NCBI GenBank assembly: GCA_037178675.1
Contig: JAYMGJ010000499.1
Span: 91,809 to 155,808 of the forward strand
DNA: 64,000 nucleotides
Direction of reading: 5' to 3'
Origin: Scleroderma bovista
Lineage: Eukaryota > Basidiomycota > Agaricomycetes > Boletales > Sclerodermataceae
Below the pieces are notes generated by a model. That model was not told the DNA's origin, made no database searches, and saw only the letters and a list, made by a program, of their open reading frames with translations. Position 1 is the first letter of the stretch. Each line of letters opens with the position of its first letter. Both the position numbers and the translations under genes were made by a program. This document shows positions 5,585-55,985 of the stretch, one piece after another.

Positions 5585-7200
5585 GTTCCATAGTATCTTT
5601 ATCTAGTACCAACTACCAACTAGTACTACACTTTTGCAACACAACTTATCATTTTTGATAATAGGCCTGTTGACACTAGACTACAGTATAATAGCCTCGT
5701 GCATTAGGTTAAGAAGTGTAGTCATAACTAGGTTTAGTACTGTAGTCTCACTTCTAAGGTAATATATAACACTATATAGTTTGCCACATACATGCTGTAT
5801 CCACCTTTCTCCTGCTTGTTCACTCCCTCTACTTTTGCACTTCCTCCAGTCTGGACATTACTCCAGGTTTAGCATTAGTTAAGTTCACCTCCATTTTAAT
5901 AGGTGGTTGTGAATGTCAGTGGTGGGCTGCAGACAATGTAATGTGGGGGTGCCTACCACTTCTGTTGCCATTGCCATTGGTGTTAATGCTAGGGGTGCTC
6001 TTTGTTTCTGCAGCTGAAGTGGTGGCATCATTGTCAATGCTGGGGCTGTTGTGGACATTAGTAAGGAGGTGCATAGTGGTGCTACATACCTAATAGCAGT
6101 GGTGGTGGTGGTGATGGCTGTTGATGTATTGTTGTTGTTGTTGATTCTAGGGTTGTTGTGATTGTTAGTGAGAGGGTACATGGTATTAGTACATCCTAAT
6201 ACCAATGCCAAGGGCTCACTGGAGGTGATGGTGAAAGGGACACAAAGGAAGGGGAGGTAGAGTAGTGAGGCTGTAGGACTTAGAGAAAATTTGAAGTGTG
6301 GTGATGACAAAGCATGTTTCAACACTATTGTGATTACAAATCACATTTGTAAACACAACAGTTTAAATTTTCTTTAAGTCCTGCACACTCTGGAACAAAA
6401 CAATGGTCAGCTGTATATGTAGTGATGCATTGTTCAATTACCAACAAATTCAGAGATAGTGCTCAGTAGGGCAACTACCACTTCTAAATGAAAACAAACA
6501 CTACATCACACTTCCACTACAACACAACAATTACTAATTGACACTACACATTTTTGGTAATCAACACTACACTTTTATTGGACTTTTACTATACATTTAC
6601 TACACATTTTGGTACACTTTTGGTACACTTTGTACTACACTTTACTATGCATTTTTACACATTTATTATGCTTATTTGGTACACTTTTACTACCCATTCA
6701 CTACCCATTTTTGATACACTTTTGGTACACTTTGTACTACACTTTTACTACACTTCACTATGCTTTTTTGGAACACATTTACTACACATTTTTAGTACAC
6801 ATTTAGTATACTTTTACTATGTTTTTTTACTCCACTTTTTACTACACTCTGACCCCACTTTTTATTACACATTTTGGTACACTTTTGATACATTTTTACT
6901 AAACATTTTTGATACACTTTTACTACACTTTTACTACACTCTGACTACACTTTTTACTACACTTTTGATACCCTTTTACTACACTTCTACTAAACATTTT
7001 TGATACACATTTACTACACTTGGACTACCCTTTGGGTATACTTTTTTGATGCACTTTTACTACACCTTTACTATGTTAAGGATGGTAGTCATGATTAGGT
7101 TAAGAAGTGTAGTTATGAGTAGGATAAGGTGTGTAGTAGTCATGAGTAGATTAAGAAATGTAGTTTGGACATAGGTGTAGTTATGACTAGATTAAGTATT
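5585..7200. repeat. AT-rich repeat region with degenerate TTTTACTACAC array (6480-7080)
   Basis: About 600 bases at 6480-7080 are built from variants of ttttactacactttt and ttttggtacact, spaced irregularly at roughly 10-25 bases. Flanks at 5690-5760 and 7080-7195 carry a second repeated word, gtagtcatgactaggttaag and variants. The 149-residue frame at 6554-7003 is a translation of the array and not a gene. A short related piece (accaactggtactacacc) recurs at 58600-58660, so this belongs to a dispersed family. Confidence 0.7.
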
Positions 7201-26449: not shown

Positions 26450-26807
26450 GACTACATGCCTTGAAGACAAGGTGGTGCATGACTGATGAAAGGAGGCAAT
26501 GTTGGGGATGGGTGCAGCATGGCAGCAATGCCTGAGGTGTCCATAAGGTGGGACTTGTGTGTGACTAACTTTTGTTACAGGGAGTCATTGAACAATTCTG
26601 TTGCACTGCCAAGCTGCTAGGGTATACAAACCAGCATTCATTAACTCTTTACAGCTGCACACTTTGCAACATTTGCAACAGAGTCCAACCCAAGTTACAC
26701 TAGCTTACAAGATATGATAATCAAATTTTGTCCATGTTCAGGGTGGAACAAGATTGATGCTGCCCAAAAAGAGCAAGACTTAGCAAGACTTGTGCCTCCT
26801 GTTGCAC
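26450..26807. other. Unassigned
   Basis: Non-repetitive sequence between LTR D and T2. Short gene-like words occur (for example around 26640-26760), but no frame or domain can be supported. Confidence 0.3.
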
Positions 26808-28208
26808 AGTCACTGCAAGCATTTGTGGATGTTTTGTGACAAAACATTGTAAAAAAATAGAATAAAGAGATACTCTTTTATTTGCAATTTTGTTTAACAC
26901 AAAAGACAAATATTATACAGCATAATCTTTGTCATTTTTATCTCAAGACATGATTTGAGACTATTTCTTATGTCAGGGCAGTAAAAAGTTTAATTTTTTT
27001 TTCTGCCTATCCTTTGCAAAACAAAATAAAGAAAACACAATATAACTTTCCTTGTATTTAATGACTAAAAACCATAATGTTCTGTGAAAAAATATTGTGA
27101 ATCACATACACTATATACTTAACAAAAAAAGCCTATAATCACAAGGTATATCCTAATAAATGCTACTCTAAATAAACATCCCTTGTTCTGGCCATAAACA
27201 TTACATGCATAACATCATTTTATTGCACAAATCATTTTAAATAAAACTCAACATGTTTATGGCCAAAACATTACATGCATAACATCATTTTATTGCACAA
27301 ATCATCTTTAAAAAAACTCAACATGTTTATGGCCAAAACATGGAGAATGCATTTTCAATGTTTTTTGTTGAAAAATGATATGGATACCTGTGAGACCTGA
27401 CTATCTAAACATGGACTGCCTCAAACATGGTGGTGAGGAAGACACCTAGGTAGCTAGTGGAATAGTGATTGTTGTCATGCTGGTGGGTGGGGCTGTTGAC
27501 ATTTGTCAACAGGGGTGGTGGCAGTGGTGGTGCTGGTGTCAGGTGTCATTGTTGTGCTGGTGCTGGAGGGACCATAGTTGTCATGCTGGTAGTGGGTAGG
27601 GCTGTTAAGTTGTCATTGCCTGGCTGGTGAGGCTTGTATATGCTGCAATACAATCATTTGTACCAAATATTGTTGCAGATGGAGGTGATGCTTACCCTCT
27701 GAAGAACCTCTGATGGATCTCCCCACAATGTTGTCAATCTTACTTGATAGACCCAATAGACTGGTGGGAGGGATGTGATACCCTCAGTGCACCTTCCTCA
27801 CAATGTTGATTGGGCCCAATAGACTTCTGTCAGGGGCTCTCAACCATTTCGGGAATTGGCATTGGAAGAGGGCATATATTAGGTACATTGTCAGGTACAC
27901 AAAAATTATTATATCTAAAGACCATGGGAACACAAACAAACTGCTGCCAAAAGTGGTGCCATGCCACTGGTGTGTTACTGATCTTTCCTCAAGAGATCTG
28001 GGGGTCAGGTGTTGGCCTAGCATTAAGGCCAAGGTGCTATGTAGCATAGTTGTGCTTCCCAAAGATTAGAAAGGCTGAACAAATACTTAAGCATGAGACT
28101 GAAGGGTATGGTCAAAGACTGACTTAGTATGAGTGCAGACACAGTGAGGGGAAAAGGCACATTACATATGGTAAGAGTTCCCAAGATTGATTTAGCCATT
28201 GGAATTAA

Positions 28209-28577: not shown

Positions 28578-31500
28578 ATAATTGGCATTGTCCTCATGGT
28601 GAAGTAATGAGTAATGACTACAACTTGCTAACTCTGATGAGAAGTATAGTATTCACAATCACACTCAGTTAGGGAGTGGTACAGGTCAACTCATGGGTGT
28701 CACCAGTCCTGACAGAACCCATGATCTGGCCAGGTTGCCAGTTATCTATATCCACAATCATGGCTACATGCCCACACCACCAATACCATCAATACCACAT
28801 GTTACATCCACATCCACAGCCTTCTCCAGACAATTTTCAAATAACTCCAGATGTATTTCAGATTGAGCAGATACAGGACAAGCATAGACAAAAGTCTGGT
28901 AATACTCATTATGGGAGACTGATATTAGACATATTTTCCACACTATTTTTAGAAAGTCAGGTCTCACAGATATCCATATCAACACATGTGATTTTTAAAC
29001 TAAAAACATGAAAAATGCATTCTCCATGTTTTGGCCATAAACAGGACCATTAGTCATGTTATTGCTGTTGACAGCATTGTCTGGCATGTGTGGGCTTTGG
29101 TGATGTGGACAAAGTGTTCCGGAGAAAACACCAGGAGTCAGGACAAGGAGTCTGATGACACAGGAGGTCCAGAGTTTTGAGTTGCAAGCAGGGAACTGCA
29201 AGCAAGAGTCAAGGCAGGGAAGCAGATGGCTCCGGAGATAATACGAGAAATCCGGAGTTTTTTAGATATGGACCAGAGATCACAAGCAGGAGTCAAGACA
29301 AGCAGTCAGATGAATCCACAGATGATACAAGAAGTCCGGAATTTTTTGGTGCAAGCTAAAGATTGCAAGCACAAGTAGTACTGACAGAGAGTCTGATGAC
29401 TCTGGAAATGACACGGAAGTCCAGAATTTGAGTTTCAAGCTGGAGATCACAAGCAGGGTGTCAGGAGAGGGAGTCAGATGACTACAAGGGTGACAAATAA
29501 AGTCCAGAGTTGCAAGTCGGAGATCGCAAGCAGAACTGCTAGAGGCGTCGACAAGGACAGAGGACAAGATGTCCAGAGTTTTGAGGTGCAAACCAGACAA
29601 CAAAGCAGAGCTGCTGGAGGTGGGTCAGATGACTCAAGAGGTGAGGCAAGAGCTCCGGAGTTTTGGATAGAAACCGGAGATGCAAAGCAGGACTTGCGGA
29701 GATGTCAGAGAGACAGAGGGTCTCGAAGGAAGCACCAGGAGTTTGGACAAGAAGTCGGGTGACTTAAAGAATGTCCAGGGGCAAGATGCAAACCGGAGTT
29801 TGCAAGCAGGACTGCTAGAGCTGACCAGGACGTGACCAGGAAGTCCGCCGGAGTTAGACAGGTCAAAAGCGGAACTGCAGGAGATGGTCAGAACTTGACC
29901 AGGGAGTCTGGAGATGGACTGGAATGATGACCAGGAGTTAGAATAGACTGTCAGATTGCGCATAGAGACAAGCAATGTCTCGAGTCCAGATGCAAACCGG
30001 AGGTCGCAACCGGAGATGCTAAAACTGACCAGGAGTTGACCAGTAAGTTCAGAGCTGGGCTGGAGTTGACCACAAGGGCCGGAGAGACCAGGAATGGTCC
30101 GGAAACAGATTAGTGCAACTGGGGGAGGCACAGATTAAAAGCGCAGACAAGTAGTATAAGCTCAAGGAGCAAGATGCAGGTGGCTGTAGAGCCAGAGTGA
30201 CCAGAAGGTCGGGAACAGGGAATGTCCAAGCTATAGGAACCAGTGGCCGGAGAGTGGCCATAGAGTGACCCTAGAGGTTACTGACAAGGAGGGAAAATGG
30301 TCCGACAATTTCCGGGCAAGTACTCAGCTTTCCTGTGGAAACAGTCCGGAGTTTTGAGTACAAAGTAGTACAGTTGACCGGAGAAAGCATGGAGTTGATC
30401 TGGAAGTGGTAGGATCAGTTGGCCGAGAGCCTAGATGGGTCAGGAGTCCACAAATATCAGCAACAAGAGAGAGAGTCGAAGGTTGAGGTTCTGGGTGTGC
30501 GGAAGAGAGCCGGAGTTGGGGTGCAAGTACTGCCAAGTGACCGGAAGTCCGCTAGTAGGGCCGGACAAGGATGGGACAGTTGGTACTAAGGTAGTCAGCA
30601 GATACAAGCAGGCTAGCACAGAGGACATAGTTTTGGTGAGCCAGCGCAATGCTGTCTCGGTTGGTCGCAGAAGATTGACACAGCTGGAGAGAAGCCTCCA
30701 AGCTAGAGAGCGACCGGAGATTGGGTCAGGAGTTCCGGACTGGCCGGAGACGCAGTCGGAAAGGTGAGTCAGCATGACACTGTCTCAGTCGAGAGGGTTG
30801 GTATAGGACCAGGAGTACCAGACTGGTTGGAGACACAGTCGGAAGAGTGAGTCAGCGCAAAGCTGTCCCAGACAGGAGTGTTGGCACGAAGCCAAACGAG
30901 CTAGCTAGTAGCTGGAAACAGAGTATGAGGTTCCAGACTGGCCGGAGATGCGACCGGAAAGGTCAGATACAGACTACGATAACAATAAAAAGTGACTAAA
31001 GGTTGGCTGGGGCGAAGCCCTTATCCCCTTCTTTGGGTAGATGTCCCATAGTCTACCCTCAGGGTAATGGGGTCAAAGCACCAGATGGCCAGGTCCGAGA
31101 GCAGGTAGTGCAGATGCACCAAAGCAATACTTGAGGCTAGCAAGCATAAAGCGGGTTAGGTAGAACAGCAGAGGATGGTGCTGTGGAGTGAGTAAAATCC
31201 GGAGTATTGACAACAAGGTCCGGAGTATTGACAAGAATAGTCCGGAGTAGTGATTACAAAGTCCGGAGTTTTGACAAAGAGGTCCGGAGCAGAATAGCAC
31301 AGAGTGCAGTTGTCCAGGTGGACAACAACCGGAGTTACTCGAGTAGTCAGGGATGGTGACGAGAGGTAGCACAGGTATACGGAGACAAGAGAGTAGCGAA
31401 TGGAAGGGTGAGTCCGAGTTGGTGAAACTGAAGACAAGGTCTTAAGTGGTAGCGGGTGGTTTCCAGGCAGAGGTGGTTCCTTCCAATCAAGGAAGAACTG

Positions 31501-32154
31501 GAGTTGCTTTCAAAGTTAGATTGCAGTCATGGGGGTTAGCCATCGCAAGCTGGATAGAAGCAGGTGGGTTTGCCCGGAGTTACCAGGAGTTCAACTGGCT
31601 AGTCGACAAGGGGTCAGAGAGAGCAGGAGGCGGAAGTAAATTCCGGAGTTTTGGAAACTAGGTTCCCAGGGGATGACGTCAGGGGCTTGGCAAACACTGC
31701 AAGGTATTTGGTGATAATACAAACCAATACCTAATTGATCAACGGATCCTCGTAGGTGGTATGTTATGTTTCGAAGTTACTCCTATTAGTAGTTCCCGAG
31801 CGAGGGTTGTGCACGGAGGCACAGATTTGTGCATATAGCACCAGATTGCACCGGAGGTGCAGATTGTGCAAAAGAGCATGAAGGTTTGTGTGCAGAGACA
31901 CAGAGGTGTGCGCAGGGGCACGGAGAGAGTTTGTGCGACGATGCCAGAGGAGCAGAGATGACCGGAGTTGACAATTTCAGAAAGGACAGACTCGGAGGTT
32001 GACAAGATAGTCAGAGGCAGGCAAAAGGGGTCAGAATGACAGACTGGATGGCAGGACAGTGCCGGAGTTCCGGAAATAGGGGTTTCCGATGGGTAACAGC
32101 AAAGCCTGTTAGTCTGGGTAGGTGGAGAAAGTCCAGAGATACCAAGCAATCAAG

Positions 32155-32470
32155 TGGAGATGTGACCGGAGTTAGCACACAGGGCACAGGAGGTGACCGG
32201 AGTTAGTGCGCAACCACAGGAGTTGACCGGAGTTAGTGCGCAGCCACAGGAGATGAGAAGAGTTGGTGCACTGGGCACAGAAGGCAACTAGAAGTAGTAT
32301 GCAGGTCACAGGAGGTGACCGGAGTTAGTGCACAATCACAGGAGTTGACCGGAGTTAGTGCGCAGCCACAAGGAGTGACCGGAGTTAGTGCACAACTACA
32401 GGAGTTGACAGGAGTTGGTGTGCAACCACAAGACACAACCGGAGTTAGTGTGTGGTGCACAAGAGATGAC
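32155..32470. repeat. Minisatellite, about 33-bp period, in the CCGGAG block
   Basis: Eight to nine units of the form gtgaccggagttagtgcgca followed by accacaggagt repeat head to tail, with the unit ends varying. It is the only part of the block with regular tandem order. The translated pattern (TGVSAQPQ) is a consequence of the repeat. Confidence 0.85.
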
Positions 32471-33647
32471 TGGACAAGGTCTAGATACCACAGACAAGAG
32501 TGTCAATGGTGCAAAGAGCGACTAGAAAGGACAGACACAAAGGACAGACAGAAGGACAGACACAAGACTGTCAAGAGCAAAGGTAGGGAGCAAAGACTAG
32601 TGGATGGCCTGCTGCATAGGTCCGGAGTTGGCTGGAGTTTCCACAGAGCGGAAAGAGTTCTGAGTGCAAGGAGTGACATTTTGACTAAAGGGAGCCCAAG
32701 TGAACAGTAGGGCGACCGGAGTTTTGAGCTAAAACATCGGAGTTGGTTATAGAGTGTTCCAAAGCACTGCGGAGTACTTCTAGTGGAGTCAGGGAGCCGG
32801 AGTGGACCAAGATGCCGGAGTACCAAGGTGTTAGACACCCAAGTAGCTGCAGAGAGACAGGATATGATGTCCGAGATTGCTGAAGGCAGTGAGGTGGACG
32901 AGGACAGCAGATCCAATGCCTAGAGATGGCTACAGAGTGTAGACAGTGATTTCCGGATAGAGCGGGAAGCCGGAAATTCAAAAGTCCGGAGTAGCCAAGA
33001 GTCTTGGTAGACAAAAGGAGGCAAGAGGCAGACAGAGGCAACAGACACAATGCCAAAGAACGGCTGCAGAGTGCGGACAAGGTTTCCAGGTGGAGCGAAG
33101 AGTTTCCCAGTCCCGGAGAAGGGACAACAAGCCGGAAAACCAAAAGTCCGGAGTTGACGAGGGTCAGAGCAGCCAAAGGAAGGCAAAGGTAGGTGCAGGC
33201 AGCAGAGCTGGTGACAAGCCAAGGCAACAGAGTGTAGACAAATACTTCCGAGTCAGCCAGAGAGTTTCCGAGTCCAAAGAAAGGACAAGAGGGCGGAAAT
33301 TCAAAAGTCCGGACCAAACAAGGGTTTGTAAAGCCGGAGTAAGATAGGGGTGACCGGAGTTGATGCCCTAAAGAAGAGCAGTCATTGGAAATAAAGTACA
33401 AAGGACTTAGAGCAAAGTCCAGGAGTAGTTGCCAGTCAATGCGGGTGACCGGAGATGGTCAGAGCAGAAAGTCCGGGTAGGACAAGTCATAGAGCGCGAT
33501 GCTCAGGAGTACAGAGGCCAAGATTGGCCGGACATGAGAGGACATGAGTGACAGACAAAGAGTGTGAGTTTATGCATACTGTCAGAGACAGTAAGTTCAG
33601 AGCCATGGCGGATGAATTTGCACGAGTTTTGGTGAGATCAAATCTAC

Positions 33648-34896
33648 TGTCAAAACCGGTTCTCCTCAAAGATCTTACTAGGAGGTCCAGAGGTGCAGGG
33701 AACTAATGAGAAGGTAAGTCCAGACACTAGTAGGTGCTAGTTAGTGCGGAGAGTCAAGTCCGGGTCAAATGAACAAAGTCCGGGCACTAGAGGAGCACAG
33801 GGAGTAAGTCCGGGTTTTTGCGGAGTAAGTCCGGACTGCGGGAAAGTGGTCTGGAGTTGAGCGCAGCTTGTCTGGAGCAAAGGACATCCCAGAGGTGGGA
33901 TAAGTCCTGAGAGGTCTAGCGTCGAGTCTGGGACAGAGGTGGCTTTTGCCCTCGTGCAAGTAGGAGACTTGCTAGGATCAGACATAGGACCAAGGGGACG
34001 AGATAGGACGGAGGCCGGAGTTGGCCGGAGTTCAGGAGTTCAGATGAACAGATGGATTAGGAGAGCATAATGGGTAGTACAGAGTGGGGAGTATCTTAGT
34101 CGAGATTTGATCTAAGGATCTACTAGGCCGGAGTACGGTAGTTTATATAGTAATGAGAACTAGGGTGAGTACATACGGTGACAAGTAAACACCTTAGTTG
34201 GGACAAGAGATGGAGCAGAAGCAGACAGGAAAATAAACCAGGTACAAGAAAATAAAGCAGGGACAAGAAAATAAACCGGAGCGGAAGCAGAAATGGGGAA
34301 CTAGGATTACAGGGACTACGGAGCAGATGCAGGGACAAGTAGGTAAAGGGAACTAGGTCGGAAGAGGACAAGTAAGGGTTGGAGGTGGACTTAACTAATG
34401 TTAAGTCCGGAGCGATGTCCAGGACCAGAGGAAGCGGGACCGGAGGAAGTGCAAGAGTGGAGGGAGTGCACAGGTGAAGGAAGGGTGGAGTAGCCGGAGG
34501 AAGGTCCGGAGTTGGACATGGAAATGTCCAAGGCCATTGGTTGACCTATCAGAGGGAGTGGAGTGGAACAGGAGCAGACCTGAGCCAGAGTTGGATGTAC
34601 CAGCCGGAGTTGGGCTAGGTCGCAGACTAGACAAAGGGAGTGGCCAGACTGAAACCGGAGTAGCGACTAATGGTAGGTACAGGTCCGACATGGAGGAGTT
34701 AGACTGCAGATGTGTCTAGAGGAAGACAGGGGTTAGTCCTGAGGTGGAGATGGACGTAGTGACCGGAGTTGAGCTGGAGTGCAGCTATGGGGCTGGAGAT
34801 GGCCGGACTAGATCCGGAGTTGCGTCTATGCCTAAGGAGAGGTCAGGCAGGCCAGGGTTAGACTGGAGTTGCGACTGGAAAAGTATGGATATGACA
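33648..34896 (+). mobile_element. LTR F (about 1.25 kb), related to LTRs B and E
   Basis: Starts TGTCAAAACCGGTTCTCC, close to the E start TGTCAAGACTGGTTCTTC, and ends GGATATGACA. Inside are TTTATATAGT near 34142, GTGACAAGTAAACACC near 34175 and repeated aggaaaataaacc words shared with LTR B. The flanking bases (TCTAC, CCATG) do not match, so it may be one LTR of a larger unit rather than a clean solo LTR. Confidence 0.55.
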
Positions 34897-35298: not shown

Positions 35299-36034
35299 TA
35301 TGGTCCCTCCAGCACTAGCACAACAATGACAGCTGACACCAGCCCCACCCACCAGCATAACAACAATCACTATTCCACTAGCTATCTAGGTGTCTTCCTC
35401 ACCACCATGTTTGAGGGAGTCCATGTTTAGATAGTCAGGTCTCACAGGTATCCATATCATTTTTCAACAAAAAACATTGACAATGCATTCTCCATGTTTT
35501 GGCCATAAACATGTTGAGTTTTATTTAAAATTATTTGTGCAATAAAATGATGTTATGCATGTAATGTTTATGGCCAGAACAAGGGATGTTTATTTAGAGT
35601 AGCATTTATTAGGATATACCTTGTGATTATAGGCTTTTTTTGTTAAGTATATAGTGTATGTGACTCACAATATTTTTTCACAGAACATTATGGTTTTTAG
35701 TCCCTAAATACAAGGAAAGTTATATTGTGTTTTCTTCATTTTGTTTTGCAAAGGATAGGCAGAAGAAAAAGTTTAAATTTTTTACTGCCCTGACATAAGA
35801 AATAGTCTCAAACCATGTCTTGAGATAAAAATGACAAAGATTATGCTGTATAATATTTGTCTTTTGTGTTAAACAAAATTGCAAATAAAAGAGTATCTCT
35901 TTATTCTATTTTTTTACAATGTTTTGTCACAAAACATCCACAAATGCTTGCAGTGAGTGTGATGTTGAGGTTGTCAGCAGGATTAACACTGCCATCTCTC
36001 AGATAGATGCTTAGTTTGACACTGACCCACATTC

Positions 36035-36894: not shown

Positions 36895-37421
36895 TGTCAA
36901 GTCTGGACAAAAGCAGACAAGAGGAAGGGTTAGAGATTTGGACAGAGGTTAGCCTGGGCTGGAGTTGTAACCAATTGGATTCAATAACAAGGATATCAAG
37001 TGTTGATCTGCATAGGTTCTGGTCAGATGGAGATGGAGACAAAGATGGACAAGGATTAGGAGTAGTAACTTTGATGATTTCAGACTGAGGAGTACAGGAT
37101 AATCTACAGATTACTTATACTAAGTGAGAACTAGGGACAAGTATATACAGTGACAAGTAAAAAACCTAAAAGGTGAACAAGGAATAATCAGAGTAAGGGC
37201 TAGGTCTGGTCTGGTAAAAATGATACAAGGTATAGGATATATTGAGTACATGGAGAACTCACATCAAGGCAGGGTAGATGGCAAGGTGTGGTAAGGACTA
37301 AATAGAGGTTGTATCCAGGGTTGTGCTTAATAGAGGTGTATCTGCATAACTGTAACCAGAGTAACAATGAGCAATCAGAGTTGAACTACACAGCTGCAAT
37401 GTGACTGGAGTGACCGGTGTT
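36895..37421 (+). mobile_element. LTR B, decayed
   Basis: Starts TGTCAAGTCTGGAC and follows the young copy at 54799 over its length, including gatttcagactgaggagtac and atggagaactcac, but most CpG sites are TG or CA here (for example gatggcaagg for gacggcgagg). The end runs into a family G LTR at about 37424. Confidence 0.8.
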
Positions 37422-44160: not shown

Positions 44161-44165
44161 CAGTC

Positions 44166-44805
44166 TGTTATGACCATGTCCAACTCCGGATCATATCCGG
44201 TTACTCCGGTCACATCGCAGGCCTACAGCTCTACTCCGGTCGTTCTCAGTTACTCCGGTCAATGGTCGCGCAGATAACCTTCCGCTAACTACGACCCTTG
44301 GTCTATACTCCATTCGCTCTTACTACACCTCGCCGTCTACCCTGCCTTGACGTGAGTTCTCCGTGAACTCGATATATCCTATACCTTGTAGCATTTTCAC
44401 CGGACCTGATTTATTTTACACGGACCTGACTTTATTTTCACCGGACCTGACCTAGTCCTAACTCCGGTCATCCCTTGTCCGCTATTAGGTTGTTTACTTG
44501 TCACCGTATGTACTCGACCCTAGTTTCTACTTAGTATAAGTACCCTCTAGTTTATCCTGTACTCCTCAGTCTGAAATCAACTTAGTCACTACTCCAGTCT
44601 CTGTCTGTCTTCGTCTCCGCCTCCATCTCTATCACCTTGACCGGAACCTACGCAAGGGATCAACGCACGTCGTCCTTGTCGTTGAATCCAAGCGGTCACC
44701 AACTCCGGCCGGACTAATCCCTCGTCCAGCCCTCTGCCCTCTTCCTTCGTCTGCGCTCGTCCGGACTTGACCGGACCCCCTACCGGAGTAGACCCGGACT
44801 TGACA
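44166..44805 (-). mobile_element. Solo LTR B, minus strand, young, TSD CAGTC
   Basis: 640 bp, TGTTATGACC ... GGACTTGACA on the plus strand, flanked by CAGTC (44161-44165 and 44806-44810). It is nearly identical to the inverted copy at 54799-55426 and has kept its CpG sites, including several CCGGAG motifs. It separates the two gene-like blocks. Confidence 0.95.
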
Positions 44806-49397: not shown

Positions 49398-49562
49398 TGT
49401 AATGGACCAACTTTTTATCTTATCTAATCTGCAATTAGATAGCACTTATCTTATCTCAGTGTACAGCCATATCTTATCTATCTAGTCTAGATCTACACTT
49501 CATGCTGCATATACTGCCTCCCTTGATGTCATACCACATAGCCTTAGCTCCACCATGACATC
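49398..49562 (+). mobile_element. Gypsy-A LTR, 5' part only
   Basis: TGTAATGGACCAACTTTTTA ... ctccaccatgacat, then an abrupt change to gypsy-2 gag-like sequence. It corresponds to the first 165 bases of the LTR. The junction probably reflects recombination or deletion. Confidence 0.8.
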
Positions 49563-49570
49563 TCGCACTT

Positions 49571-50781
49571 GTGTGGGTTCACTATCCCAAACCTCATACG
49601 CATATCCAGTTCCATTTCCTTATGACCATGACTACATGCTCTCACGCTTGTACCGTGGTGGCACTTGCTGAAAAAGCAAGTGCAGTGGATGATCTCCACC
49701 TCTCTGCCACTCAACAAGCCCTGTCTAACCGCAGGCAACCTCCAGCTTCTGTAAGCCAATTTAGGAGCTTCACAGCTTGAAGTCCAGCAGTGTCAATGAC
49801 TCTGCATTGCGATGCTGCATCTCAGAGCCTTTGTAGTTCTACAGACCCTGGTCACCATGGATCCGTTTCTGGTGACAGCTTTCCATACCATCGCGACTCC
49901 ACTCTGGAACGTCACAACCCCAGCTGTTACCAATGGTTTGGCCCCGAGGACGGACCTGGAGATGATCCAGATGGCTCCGGAAATGGTGATAATGATGACA
50001 ACAACAACAGCAAAGAGTTTGTCGACGCCACAGAGGAGCTAGACCCTAGTCTAGCCGTTTTCCACAATCTCGCTCTCACTGTCAACTGCCTCTCTCATTC
50101 CTCCTGCTGGACCAACAACTCCTCATCTCCTGTGCCAAAGTCCGTGAACTGGACACCTTCAACAGCACAGATCCCAAAAAGCTCAGGACCTTCCTGGTCC
50201 AGTGTGAGCTATGTTTCCAGGATCATGCCAAAGTGTTCCACCTTGATAGGGCAAAGGTAACTTTCGCCCAATCATATCTAAAAGGAATGACCCTAGAATG
50301 GTTCGAACCAGACCTGCTTAACTCCAGTGATCTGGCTGACCACCCACACTGGATGGACAGCTGGATCCACTTTGTGGCTGAGTTTCAAAGCACCTTTGGG
50401 CCTCACGACCCCATCACTGATGCTGAGCATCAACTCAAGCATCTCCGGATGAAGGATGCTCACTGCATTACACAGTATATAGTAGACTTCAACCAACTCG
50501 CCTTGCAGGTTCAGGACTACAGGGATGGCGTGCTCCACCACCTGTTTTACTCTGGTCTCCCGGATCATGGCAAGGATGAAATTGCTCGAGTTGGGAAGCC
50601 CCTGACTCTGCATGGGTTGAGAGCTCTCTGCCAAGAAATTGATGCATGCTATTGGGAGCACAAAGACGAGATCTCTCGCACAACAAAGACCCAGTCCACC
50701 TCATCCCCAACCAAGTCCTCCAACTCCAGAGGCAACTCATCCAGCTCCAGTCAGGAGAAATCCAAGACCAGAAACTCCTAG
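49571..50781 (+). pseudogene. Gypsy-2 gag (capsid part), broken
   Basis: A first frame (49571-50095) has one stop at 49778 and contains WFGPEDGPGDDPDGSGNGDN and an acidic, Asn-rich linker. After a frameshift near 50095 the second frame gives LLISCAKVRELDTFNSTDP, KLRTFLVQCELCFQDHAK, FAQSYLKGMTLEWFEPDLL, EFQSTFGPHDPITDAEHQL, YIVDFNQLALQVQDY and HHLFYSGLPDHGKDEIA, the typical retrotransposon gag core, then a Ser/Thr/Lys-rich tail to 50781. The sequence is better preserved than gypsy-A and clearly a different family. Confidence 0.88.
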
Positions 50782-50849
50782 TCCTCCTCTGGTTCCAGAC
50801 CAGACTTAACCAACAAGCTTGGTAAGGATGGGAAGCTAACCACAGATGA

Positions 50850-51024
50850 GTGCAAATGGTGTCTGGTCAACAACCTCTGCATGTTCTGCGGAGGCACTGG
50901 ACATTTTGTGGACAACTGTCCCAAAAAGATCAAAAAGGCCAAAGCTCGTGCTGTGGCAATTGCTGCTGAGTCCAGTAAGATGGACTCCAACTCGGGTGCC
51001 AACTCCAAGTCAAAAAAAGAGTAA
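50850..51024 (+). pseudogene. Gypsy-2 nucleocapsid zinc knuckle
   Basis: CMFCGGTGHFVDNC (C-X2-C-X4-H-X4-C) followed by basic PKKIKKAKARAVAIAAE is the RNA-binding end of gag. A stop and frame change separate it from the capsid frame ending at 50781. Confidence 0.85.
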
Positions 51025-51119
51025 GCAGCTCCCAGCCCTCCGCACAACTGGCGAGCTGCGTTGACTCCGGAAGTGCACCCAAGGAGGCTTGCATCAACGT
51101 GTCCACTCTTTACGATCTT

Positions 51120-52215
51120 AATTCTCTTATGCCCCATGTTTCCCTCTTATCTTTGGACTTACCTAAAATTTGCACACTTGTGGACACTGGATCCACCCAT
51201 TGTTTTGTAGACAAAATTCATGCACAAAAACAAATTTACAACCTACTCTGTAACTCCGATTGTACTCTGGCTTTTTGATGGATTTTCAAACTTTGTAATC
51301 ACAGAAGCTATCAACTTAACAGTGCAGTTCCCCGCTACCAGTGATGTCACCCCCATGACCTTTTACCTCACTCCATTGGATTCTGAATGCATTATCGTTC
51401 TCAGACATAACTGGCTCACCCACTACAATCCATTGATTGATTGGGTATTGAGCAGCTTAATGTTCTGGACTCTTGCAGGAAGTTTGCCAGCACCCCTGCC
51501 AACTCCCTCTCTGGTTCTGCCTAGTAACCCTGTCTCTGGCCTTCCTGGCCAATCTGACTCCAGCCTTGCGCCATCTGTCGACACTCCAGTCTGCAACCCT
51601 CCACATATCTCTTTGATAAACACAGCCACATTCGTGCATGCATGCAAATTAGAGGAATCAATGAAATACCAACTTCAGCTGCATCCCTCTGACTCAGTGA
51701 ATGCCCATTCTTCCTCCTCATCCACCCCTCCGGTTCCGGACATTGTTCCTCCGGAGTATCACAATTACGCAGATGTATTCAGTAAGGCGAAGGCCTCTGA
51801 ACTTCCCCCGCATTGCAACAACGACCTGAAGATCAACCTTGAAGAAGGTACCTCTCCACCTTTGAGAACTCTTTACTCACTGTCTCTGGTTGAGCTCTCC
51901 GCTCTCTGGACTCTCATCAATGAGAATCTTAATACAGGTTTCATCTGCCCTACCACTTCCTCCCACACTGCTCCAGTCCTCTTCATTAAAAAGAAGGATG
52001 GCTTTCTCTGCCTCTGCGTTGACTTCCGAGGTCTTAACAAAATCACCAAAAAGGATCGCTACCCACTTGCTCTCATTTCTGACCTTTTGGACTCTCCCAG
52101 CCATGCCAAGATCTACTTCAAGATCGACCTCCGGCATGCCTACCATCTCATCTGGATTGCTCCAGGCAATGAGTGGAAAACTGCCTTCCGCACGCACTAT
52201 GGGTCCTACAAGTGA
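51120..52215 (+). pseudogene. Gypsy-2 protease and 5' half of reverse transcriptase
   Basis: The protease active site LVDTGSTHCFVDKI (51175-51220) lies in one frame and the rest continues in the frame 51220-52215: LTVQFPATSDVTPMTF, LDSECIIVLRHNWLT. RT begins VPDIVPPEYHNYADVFSKAKA, ELPPHCNNDLKI, then SSHTAPVLFIKKKDG, CVDFRGLNKITKKDRYPLAL and KIDLRHAYHLIWIAPGNEWK. The frame stops at TGA 52213-52215 where Trp is normal before LVMPF, a single G to A change. Confidence 0.92.
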
Positions 52216-53418
52216 TTAGTCATGCCCTTCAGCCTCACTAATGCCCTTGCAGCCTTCCAGCATTTTGTCAACACCATCTTTGCTGACATGCTGGATGTCT
52301 GCGTCGTCGTGTACCTCGACGACATCCTCATCTACTCCGAGGATATGGAGTCCCACCAGCAGCACGTCCGAGAAGTGCTCCGCCATCTCCAGTTGCATGG
52401 CCTCTTTGCCAAACTGGAGAAATGCGAGTTCCACTCAGACTTGGTAGAGTATCTTGGCTACCGCCTATCTCCGGAAGGTTTGACTATGTCTCCGGACAAA
52501 ATCCAAACCATCTCCGACTGGCCTGAACCACAAAAGGTAAAGGACATCCAGTCCTTCCTAGGCTTCGCCAATTTCTACCGCCGGTTCATCTTTAACTACT
52601 CCAACATTGTGGTCCCCCTCACCCAGCTCACCTGGCAGGATGCTCCCTGAAATTTCTCCAAGGACTGTCGGTGTTTATTCAATGCTCTTAAGCATGCTTT
52701 CACCACTGTGCCCATTCTCACTCACTTCATTCCGGACACTCCTATTATTGTGGAAACTGATGCCTCTGACTACACTGTCGCTGGTATCTTGTTTATTACC
52801 TGCACTCAGGGAGAGATCCGTCCAGTTGCCTACTCCCAGACTTTGACTGCTCCAGAGTTAAACTACAACACCCATGATAAGGAATTATTAGCTATCTTTG
52901 AAGCATTCTGGAACTAGCACCACTACCTTGAAGGCTCCACCACTACCTTGAAGGCTCCACCTCTCCTATTGATGTTGTCATGGACCACAAGAATCTCGAG
53001 TATTTCTCAACCTCAAAAGTACTCTCCTGCCGGCAAGCCCAGTGGTCCGAATTTTTATCTCAGTTTAATCTTGTCATTCGCTTCTGCCCTGATAAGCTCG
53101 GTGCCAAGCCTGATGCTCTCACTAGACGATGGGACGTCTACCCCAAAGAGGGGGATAGTGGCTACACCTGGGTTAACCCCCAAAATCTCTGGCTGGTGTT
53201 CACTCAAGAACAGCTCTCTAACTCACTTCGCACTACCTATCTAGAACTCCTGGTCCTCCGTGCCATTGCAATCATGGATGTAGAAACACTCCATCACGAC
53301 ATGCTCTCTGCACTACCCTCTGATCACATTTCCCAGATCCACCTTGCAGACCCTCCAGACTCTCGCTGGTCTGCTGATGAAGTAGGATTCCTCTGGCTAG
53401 ACGGCCATATCTACATAC
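52216..53418 (+). pseudogene. Gypsy-2 RT second half, RNase H and start of integrase, cut by a copia LTR
   Basis: Continues after the stop with MPFSLTNALAAFQHFVN, the catalytic YLDD near 52312, EKCEFHSDLVEYLGYRLS and SFLGFANFYRRFIFNYS. A TGA at 52648 and a TAG near 52916 again replace Trp. RNase H follows: IIVETDASDYTVAGILF, ELNYNTHDKELLAIFEAF, HHYLEG (with a 17-bp duplication near 52935), [20 protein letters not shown], and [12 protein letters not shown]. The integrase zinc-finger region starts ([19 protein letters not shown]) and is cut at 53418 by the LTR K that begins a copia element. Confidence 0.92.
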
Positions 53419-53699
53419 TGTTGATATTGAGTGTTTGCACTCTTGTGGTGTTGTGCACACTGGCGCATTTGCAGTGATTACTTCAGCTGTTTCCTTTCAA
53501 GGTTGATCAGGTGATTTGTGGCTTTTGTGTTACACTGTTTTTCCTTGTTTGCTTTGTTTGTATAGTTGAAATTTTCGTGCCCAGAGTCACTTCTCTTCAG
53601 TCTCTGACACTGGGCACAAGGTCTGTATTCTGTAGCTTCACTCTTAATTTAGTCTCTGACACTGGGCACAAGAGTGCTCCTTTATGGTTTATCTGAACA
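53419..53699 (+). mobile_element. 5' LTR of a copia element (family K)
   Basis: TGTTGATATTGAGTG ... GTTTATCTGAACA, 281 bp, directly followed by a primer-binding site and a copia gag. This copy identifies the K LTR family as copia. Confidence 0.9.
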
Positions 53700-54715: not shown

Positions 54716-55985
54716 GGTGAGTGGCTAGCTTCTCCAAAGCAGCCTGTCTCCACTTTTCTGCATCAGGACGAGTCAGAGCCTCTGCAAATGTGAGTGTGTG
54801 TCAAGTCCGGGTCTACTCCGGTAGGGGGTCCGGTCAAGTCCGGACGAGCGCGGACGAAGGAAGAGGGCAGAGGGCTGGACGAGGGATTAGTCCGGCCGGA
54901 GTTGGTGACCGCTTGGATTCAACGACAAGGACGACGTGCGTTGATCCCTTGTGTAGGTTCCGGTCAAGGTGATAGAGACGGAGACAGACAGAGACTGGAG
55001 TAGTGACTAAGTTGATTTCAGACTGAGGAGTACAGGATAAACTAGAGGGTACTTATACTAAGTAGAAACTAGGGTCAAGTACATACGGTGACAAGTAAAC
55101 AACCTAATAGCGGACAAGGGATGACCGGAGTTAGGACTAGGTCAGGTCCGGTGAAAATAAAGTCAGGTCCGTGTAAAATAAATCAGGTCCGGTGAAAATG
55201 CTACAAGGTATAGGATATATCGAGTTCATGGAGAACTCACGTCAAGGCAGGGTAGACGGCGAGGTGTAGTAAGAGCGAATGGAGTATAGACCAAGGGTCG
55301 TAGTTAGCGGAAGGTTATCTGTGCGACCGTTGACCGGAGTAACTGAGAACGACCGGAGTTGAGCTGTAGGCCTGCAATGTGACCGGAGTAACCGGATATG
55401 ATCCGGAGTTGGACATGGTCGTAACAGTGTGGCTCATTAGGGAAAGATGCAGCCATAGCCAATTCATCATCACTGTCCTCCATCTCATCTGGTTCATCCA
55501 GCTGCACAGGAGAGAGCTTCCACCACTCTCTAGACTTCTGTCTGTTGCGCATAGGCAGCCTGGCACCAATTCCGATGGGACTAGATGATCTGGGACATGG
55601 TTCTGGGGATGGAGTGTGCAAGGAGGTTCAGGAGGTTTATCTGGCATAGCAGGAGGTTCTGGATTAGCAGGTATAGGTATAGGCTCCCCCCCATGATCCA
55701 GTACCTCATTGCAATCGCTCTCAGAGTCCAAAGTTGCGCCAGGGTTGTAGTATTCAACTGGGGGCAAAGGTGGGACAATAGTAGGGGGAGGCTGGGAGGG
55801 TGAGGGTGATCTTTTGGACATAGGGAAGTACCTTTCGTCAAAATCAGCCCTTTCAGAGATTACAGTGTGCTTGGAAGTGGGGTTATAGAACTTCCAGCCT
55901 TTGTAACCCTCAGGATAGCCTAGAAAGACACATTTCTCCATGTAGGACTCCAGAGGTCGCCACTTGTCCTTCTACAAATGCACAT
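54716..55985 (-). pseudogene. Copia pol fragment (integrase C-terminus to start of RT), split by solo LTR B
   Basis: Read on the minus strand from 55985: QKDK-like then PLESYMEKCVFLGYPEGY, KGWKFYNPTSKHTVISE, RADFDERYFPMSKRS, a Pro-rich linker with EVLDHGGEPIPIPANPEPP, and an acidic MEDSDDELAMAASFPNEPH. A solo LTR B intervenes (55426-54799), and TLTFAEALTRPDAEKWRQAALEKL opens the RT domain (54798-54716). The join across the LTR is seamless apart from the duplication. The Pro-rich linker changes frame once. Confidence 0.85.
54799..55426 (+). mobile_element. Solo LTR B, young, TSD GTGTG
   Basis: 628 bp, TGTCAAGTCCGGG ... GGTCGTAACA, flanked by GTGTG (54794-54798 and 55427-55431). CpG-rich. Tandem caggtccggtgaaaataaa-type units lie at 55140-55200, and CCGGAG motifs cluster at 55335-55415. 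Nearly identical to the inverted copy at 44166-44805. Confidence 0.95.

Follow-up and report, generated by a model that had tools for sequence, protein, structure and literature searches.

A gene-less LTR retrotransposon of Scleroderma bovista filled with the word of a Ty3/gypsy family, and a candidate zinc-cluster reader of that word

The block of DNA described here (positions 29089–34896 of a 64-kb window, the whole stretch that was analysed, on the 51.8-Mb genome of the basidiomycete Scleroderma bovista) belongs to a multi-copy family of non-coding long terminal repeat (LTR) retrotransposons of the large retrotransposon derivative (LARD) type and is a truncated member of it. Its sense strand is the minus strand and it is crowded with the word CCGGAG (CTCCGG in sense). 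LARDs have long LTRs and a long, conserved, non-coding internal part and are mobilised in trans. An autonomous Ty3/gypsy family of the same genome, here called Y, has an excess of CCGG and CTCCGG in the LTR and the 3′ region and, within coding sequence, in gag and pol. On balance, the sequences make it probable that the block family parasitises Ty3/gypsy elements, most likely those of family Y, that a candidate zinc-cluster protein of each such family binds that family's own CCGN word, and that the parasite keeps the Y sites.

CCGGAG is found 57 times on the plus strand of the block and twice on the minus strand. Dinucleotide-preserving shuffles of the block (n = 300) contain 1.8 on average and 6 at most, and the second-order Markov expectation is 11.6. 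A sequence-only reading of the window had put the number at more than 50 where one or two were expected and had proposed a count against shuffled sequence; the count agrees, with the block far above the shuffles, and plain compositional bias is thereby ruled out as the source of the words. The internal part holds 45 of the 57 and the LTR the other 12, whilst the rest of the window (outside 29–35 kb) has 9 on the plus strand and 16 on the minus. Read in sense, the internal region contains 45 CTCCGG, two CCGGAG and 59 CCGG (9.1 CCGG in shuffles), and the LTR contains 12 CTCCGG. The sequence-only reading was also right that the words are mostly not in tandem: two tandem arrays hold just seven and five of them, an 83-bp array is also present, and most of the words lie outside the arrays, among varied neighbours.

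A genome search with the block returned 89 matches (the best 25 of 979 candidates scored); our whole-genome searches score best candidates only, and all copy numbers are therefore lower bounds. Other genomic copies, for which the sequence-only reading had proposed a search, run through the whole block and set its ends at 29105 and 34896, so that an origin from several unrelated insertions is rejected. Full copies total ~7.5 kb and are laid out as a 1.25-kb LTR, a 336-bp segment, a 4.5-kb internal part and an LTR, with both LTRs present and ends of the form TGTCA...TGACA; the window copy has one LTR and is without the final ~336 bp (in sense) and the 3′ LTR. Perfect 5-bp target-site duplications flank four of six full copies (C106, C313, C442 and C411, not C190 or C17). 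Computed over at most 1.17 kb of LTR, the identity of the LTR pairs is 97.5–98.1% (n = 4), and ~91–95% in the two copies without duplications. The LTR that the sequence-only reading placed at the end of the block is real, its genomic copies occurring both in pairs and as solo LTRs, with target-site duplications of 5 bp; the suggestion that the whole block is a hugely expanded LTR was not borne out, the LTR being limited to the interval in Table 1. Ten LTRs sampled near the top of the LTR match list comprised six solo LTRs with a perfect duplication, one without a duplication and three whose far end was not found. LTRs of the block family are common (480 first-look candidates, the best 40 of which were scored and are 96–98% alike).

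None of eight open reading frames (ORFs) in the block has a Pfam match at E ≤ 0.1, and the block has no match in Rfam. The longest frame (257 amino acids, minus strand) is kept in two of the other long copies examined (C190 and C335) and shortened in two (to 151 amino acids in C313 and 175 in C442). The sequence-only judgement that no ORF is credible holds on both counts; a protein-coding gene is rejected, as is a structured RNA of known family. With no recognisable gene in the block, the element was presumably moved in trans.

Three features fix the orientation. In full copies the minus strand has the polypurine tract AAGAGGGGGATAC beside the 3′ LTR, and the tract of the 336-bp segment adjoins the LTR only in the minus reading. 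The last 40–57 bases of that segment match 21 other places at 84–93%, six of which (C449, C436, C163 twice, C145 and C37) lie 2.7–3.6 kb downstream, antisense of a Ty3/gypsy reverse transcriptase. At C30 the arrangement recurs with a distance of 7.9 kb; C656, 6 kb off and in the same orientation, is an exception; and the remainder have no reverse transcriptase near among the matches listed (the comparison was made by eye with the best 150 of 750 reverse-transcriptase matches). Two ends of a sister family of Y, here called X, confirmed the arrangement when read, with a polypurine tract followed by the LTR. The TATATA of the block LTR has the same minus orientation. From the polypurine position, the gypsy orientation and TATATA, the sense strand is taken to be the minus strand and the sense word CTCCGG; the window's plus strand is rejected as sense because the polypurine side of the 336-bp segment would then be antisense to gypsy elements. 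Directly after the LTR, at the position of the primer-binding site, the 17 bases GTAGATTTGATCTCACC are identical in the window copy and seven other copies read. The putative placement of the block among gypsy elements rests on a polypurine region and LTR ends that it has in common with families X and Y. A ~70-bp stretch of the block LTR (34146–34212) is 83–84% identical to the window's old Y-family LTRs.

Family Y was reached through a pattern of two CCGGAGTT words 4–34 bases apart, which has 179 forward and 179 reverse matches genome-wide (the reversed control pattern has none on either strand). Five places among the matches listed (C19, C138, C198, C58 and C30) lie ~1.28 kb upstream, antisense of gypsy reverse transcriptases, and that in C19 is inside an intact Y element with 623-bp LTRs that are 99% alike and a 1247-amino-acid pol frame. 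This intact element (C19:2600–12900) itself sits in an apparently solo LTR of the block family, with a GGTCC duplication. The window holds older Y sequences (Table 1). Two further LTRs, B and E, to which the sequence-only reading had related the LTR of the block, are on our assumption the two old Y LTRs of the table; so identified, they do hold CCGGAG, and family Y is related to the block. A still older relative of the Y LTR (77%) lies at 36896–37221. One scan of viral contigs with part of Y pol found no relatives.

Table 1. Positions in the window of the block, its parts and the old family Y sequences
Feature	Positions	Strand	Remark
Truncated non-autonomous LTR retrotransposon, LARD-type	29105–34896	−	Genomic copies start and stop at these points
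Non-coding internal region, pyrimidine-rich in sense	29105–33647	−	No Pfam or Rfam match
Tandem array, 21-bp, 4.5 units	31194–31289	−	5 CCGGAG
Tandem array, 30/60-bp, 9.5 units	32162–32450	−	7 CCGGAG
Primer-binding-site position, GTAGATTTGATCTCACC	33631–33647	−	Directly after LTR
5′ LTR in sense (LTR F of the sequence-only reading), 1249 bp, TGTCAT...TTGACA	33648–34896	−	
TATATA, presumed LTR promoter box	34144–34149	−	Edge of ~70-bp Y-LTR-like stretch
Old LTR of autonomous gypsy family Y	44165–44805	+	~83% to intact C19 copy
Old Y gag-pol remnant	49562–53420	+	82–84% to C19
Second old Y-family LTR, opposite orientation	54799–55428	−	

The word excess of family Y extends into its coding sequence. 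In the pol frame of the intact element CTCCGG occurs 19 times (4, 10 and 5 in the three codon phases) against 5.7 in synonymous shuffles, none of 400 of which reach this number. Under a stricter null that keeps the protein, the codon usage and the codon-junction dinucleotides, the figures are 19 against 7.5 for CTCCGG and 59 against 40.6 for CCGG, neither being reached in 150 shuffles. The other four Y frames behave alike; the excess in gag is smaller (CTCCGG 7 against 3.4, reached by 5 of 400 shuffles). The antisense orientation is enriched in Y pol too (CCGGAG 6 against 2.1 in synonymous shuffles), and the excess reaches beyond the CpG to its flanks (CTCCGG, TCCGGT). The sister family X favours CCGA instead (CCGA 69 against 42.7 and TCGG 31 against 23.1 in synonymous shuffles of its pol), and a third family, Z, favours CCGC, more weakly. 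In pol the families avoid one another's contexts, and a family-specific repeated word is clear in Y and X and is seen in Z in pol only. As Y, X and Z favour different contexts in one genome, a host-wide CpG context effect is rejected. Host chaperonin frames from five loci have no comparable word excess, a single host frame reaching a z of 2.8 for CCGC, and host codon-context bias is rejected on this ground; the control took the two longest plus-strand frames of each locus, and of these ten frames eight score above the chaperonin cut-off, one gives a weak match and one none. A 157-amino-acid copia-like piece, which we take to be copia gag, gave z values of 1.6 for CCGG and −1.8 for CCGC (one piece only).

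A candidate reader is encoded by the same elements. In X and Y (one examined member each) an antisense frame lies between pol and the 3′ LTR, with a TATA-like box 58–68 bases before the ATG and a predicted intron. In its product a six-cysteine cluster stands between a coiled-coil-like N-terminal part and an acidic tail ('coiled-coil-like' and 'acidic' are labels read off the letters); a similar cysteine cluster is found for Z in a 0.8-kb piece. Fungal zinc-cluster regulators read CGG or CCG triplets through a Zn2Cys6 domain of the pattern C-x2-C-x6-C-x(5-12)-C-x2-C-x(6-8)-C. The Y spacing fits it exactly (x2, x6, x11, x2, x6, that is, two C-x2-C-x6-C halves), whilst X and Z depart from it in having a longer first loop (x8 and x9). 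Public protein sets contain 47 relatives of the Y protein and 129 of the X protein; the six named relatives, all found by the X search (120 of its 129 relatives listed), are Scleroderma citrinum hypothetical proteins. At least 90% of alignment rows retain the last three cysteines. In the Y set most rows lack the first, as the database proteins begin after it, and a few relatives lose more of the cluster. The block itself has no zinc-cluster pattern on either strand.

In Pfam, Zn_clus (PF00172) is found below threshold in X and in the proteins P0048, P0065 and P0149 and is absent in Y and in seven of ten relatives. The Y protein matches only TAF4 and ATP19, and the X exon pieces match, besides Zn_clus, a few low-complexity or coiled-type families, all below cut-off; no further regulator domain in the antisense proteins exceeds its Pfam cut-off. 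A comparison by sequence with solved structures produced no zinc cluster, and either no match or weak ones to unrelated chains (among them gp130, designed coiled coils and histone H2B).

Several points weigh against the proposal that the block exploits a word read by such proteins. The best Zn_clus score is 15.6 bits where the gathering cut-off is 21, and the comparison covers three families only, one of them weak. The polypurine side of the block is closer to X, whereas its LTR and word are closer to Y, and for this reason Y is a candidate for the mobilising element. Finally, a signal in RNA would fit as well the bias of the word towards one strand, which is seen both in the block and in Y.

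Such a signal, with sense CUCCGG serving the family's Gag as a dispersed packaging or processing mark that the parasite has copied, is unlikely, if still worth setting out. The sense bias (57:2 in the block; 41:10 in Y when LTR, gag, pol and 3′ region are added up) speaks for it, as does the CCHC-like sequence CMFCGGTGHFADNC of Y Gag, presumably a zinc knuckle. It is countered by the excess of both orientations over synonymous shuffles in Y and X pol, and by the X LTR and 3′ region, which are richer in the antisense orientation (4:9, 3:11 and 14:20).

Rather less probable is that CpGs outside a favoured context, being methylated, disappear more quickly and leave the word as the remainder. Between block copies (pieces below 88% identity or 300 bases dropped), CpG to TG or CA differences affect 17% of CCGGAG, 22% of other CCGG and 29% of other CpGs, and the old window copy of Y has lost CCGG at 0.42 against 0.52 for all CpGs, as survival of this kind would have it. 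Against this, the preferred context differs from family to family within one genome, with mutual avoidance in pol, and the excess includes flanks outside the CpG. Moreover, slow change tends to track the family: differences in Y pol are 0.11 for CCGG against 0.24 for CCGA, and those in X pol 0.14 for CCGA against 0.25 for CCGG, the X numbers being small (just 8/32 for CCGG) and several other X contexts being as slow as CCGA (0.13–0.15). All these decay rates come from non-independent copy pairs.

We also think it improbable, to a slightly greater degree, that the internal region grew neutrally by short tandem duplications during reverse transcription, the word being a relic of the first unit. 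Real 21-, 30- and 83-bp arrays exist in the block, but most words fall outside them, Y coding sequence is enriched in the word and has it in each of the three phases, and the stricter null leaves an excess of CCGG in both variable phases (phase 0 is fixed by the null). The AG of CCGGAG is, moreover, kept between block copies in 98.5% of cases against 91.3% for other AG. Least probable of all is a host transcription-factor site exploited by the LTRs without an element-encoded reader, which the presence of the word in LTRs and the CGG triplets read by fungal zinc-cluster regulators would suit; against it, the word runs through entire elements, pol among them, sister families within one host have different words, and every family has a candidate reader encoded in its own DNA.

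On our preferred reading, the zinc-cluster protein of each family would bind the CCGN word of that family at its scattered sites along the element; the parasite, having no gene, would retain a dense array of Y sites on which the Y protein could act in trans. The outcome of binding is the least certain step, and may be protection from silencing like that attributed to VANC (see below), transcriptional activation of the LTR, or both. Protection is what we would guess first, since the CpG at the centre of the word differs less between copies than other CpGs do and the slow-changing context tends to follow the family; activation via the acidic tail is just as possible. The sequence-only suggestion of a binding-site array has thus gained from the family-specific excess in Y and the Zn2Cys6-like gene there. 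The same reading had proposed, alternatively, that the motif may be a methylation-sensitive site (CCGG); CpGs inside CCGG show fewer differences between copies than the remaining CpGs. More tentatively, and short of an even chance in our estimation, fungal gypsy families may each write a private CCGN word throughout their DNA, synonymous positions of gag-pol included, as a code of self-identity read by their own antisense zinc-cluster protein and exploited by gene-less word-array parasites.

Around the block lies an inverted pair of older CpG-poor repeats (26805–27508 and 35327–35961), 97.7% identical over 468 bp and 95.2% over ~250 bp, as though the block had gone into a palindromic arrangement or close to one. 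Elsewhere in the window, a degenerate tandem-like stretch (6543–7073) has shifted copies ~73–78% alike.

If the proposal is true, fungal LTR retrotransposons have evolved an element-encoded protein with a matching dispersed word, presumably independently of the VANDAL transposons of plants, and the pair could be how a mobile element marks itself as self. Antisense ORFs between pol and the 3′ LTR, whose role a review of plant elements gives as unknown, would gain a function, and a synonymous-site bias beyond codon usage and codon-junction composition would be accounted for. The proposal would also offer a natural series of zinc clusters with divergent targets for the study of protein–DNA co-evolution and, possibly, for targeted epigenome editing. 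Among the open-access titles and openings of abstracts listed, none names a zinc-cluster gene or a family-specific word code in an LTR retrotransposon.

The block resembles LARDs in its long LTRs and long non-coding internal part and differs from them in that the word of a partner family is densely arrayed through this part. The antisense protein of Y resembles the Gal4-type Zn(II)2Cys6 domain (PF00172) in its two C-x2-C-x6-C halves and its candidate CCG/CGG-core target; it differs in falling below the Pfam cut-off, and X and Z differ in their longer first loop. Antisense ORFs between pol and the 3′ LTR are described in the plant gypsy elements Grande (gene23), RIRE2 and Retand; in the passages concerned, that of Grande has its own promoter and a nuclear protein, and the TRP28 domain of Retand is predicted to bind DNA (PMC7264820, PMC11963269). 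The same passages mention brtn of the Botrytis element Boty as an additional antisense gene. The plant frames share the position and orientation of those in X and Y; the passages on them and on brtn give no target word or zinc-cluster pattern.

The VANDALs are plant DNA transposons. In Arabidopsis, a VANDAL-encoded anti-silencing protein, VANC, is reported to be paired with a short family-specific word repeated along the element (Hosaka 2017, PMC5735166); the targets are often tandem repeats, related families use different words, and the VANC21 motif lies in non-coding regions and is absent from two coding probes (PMC5735166). The likeness lies in a candidate element-encoded protein, a family-specific repeated word and words that differ between families. 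The differences are that here the word crowds gag and pol whereas the VANC21 motif is non-coding, and that the reader here is a candidate, fungal and zinc-cluster-like. Pfam, no VANC sequence being compared directly, found no VANC-type protein in the Y protein or the X exon pieces, which makes these analogues at most: the parallel with VANC, taken as an analogy, is one of logic and not of descent.

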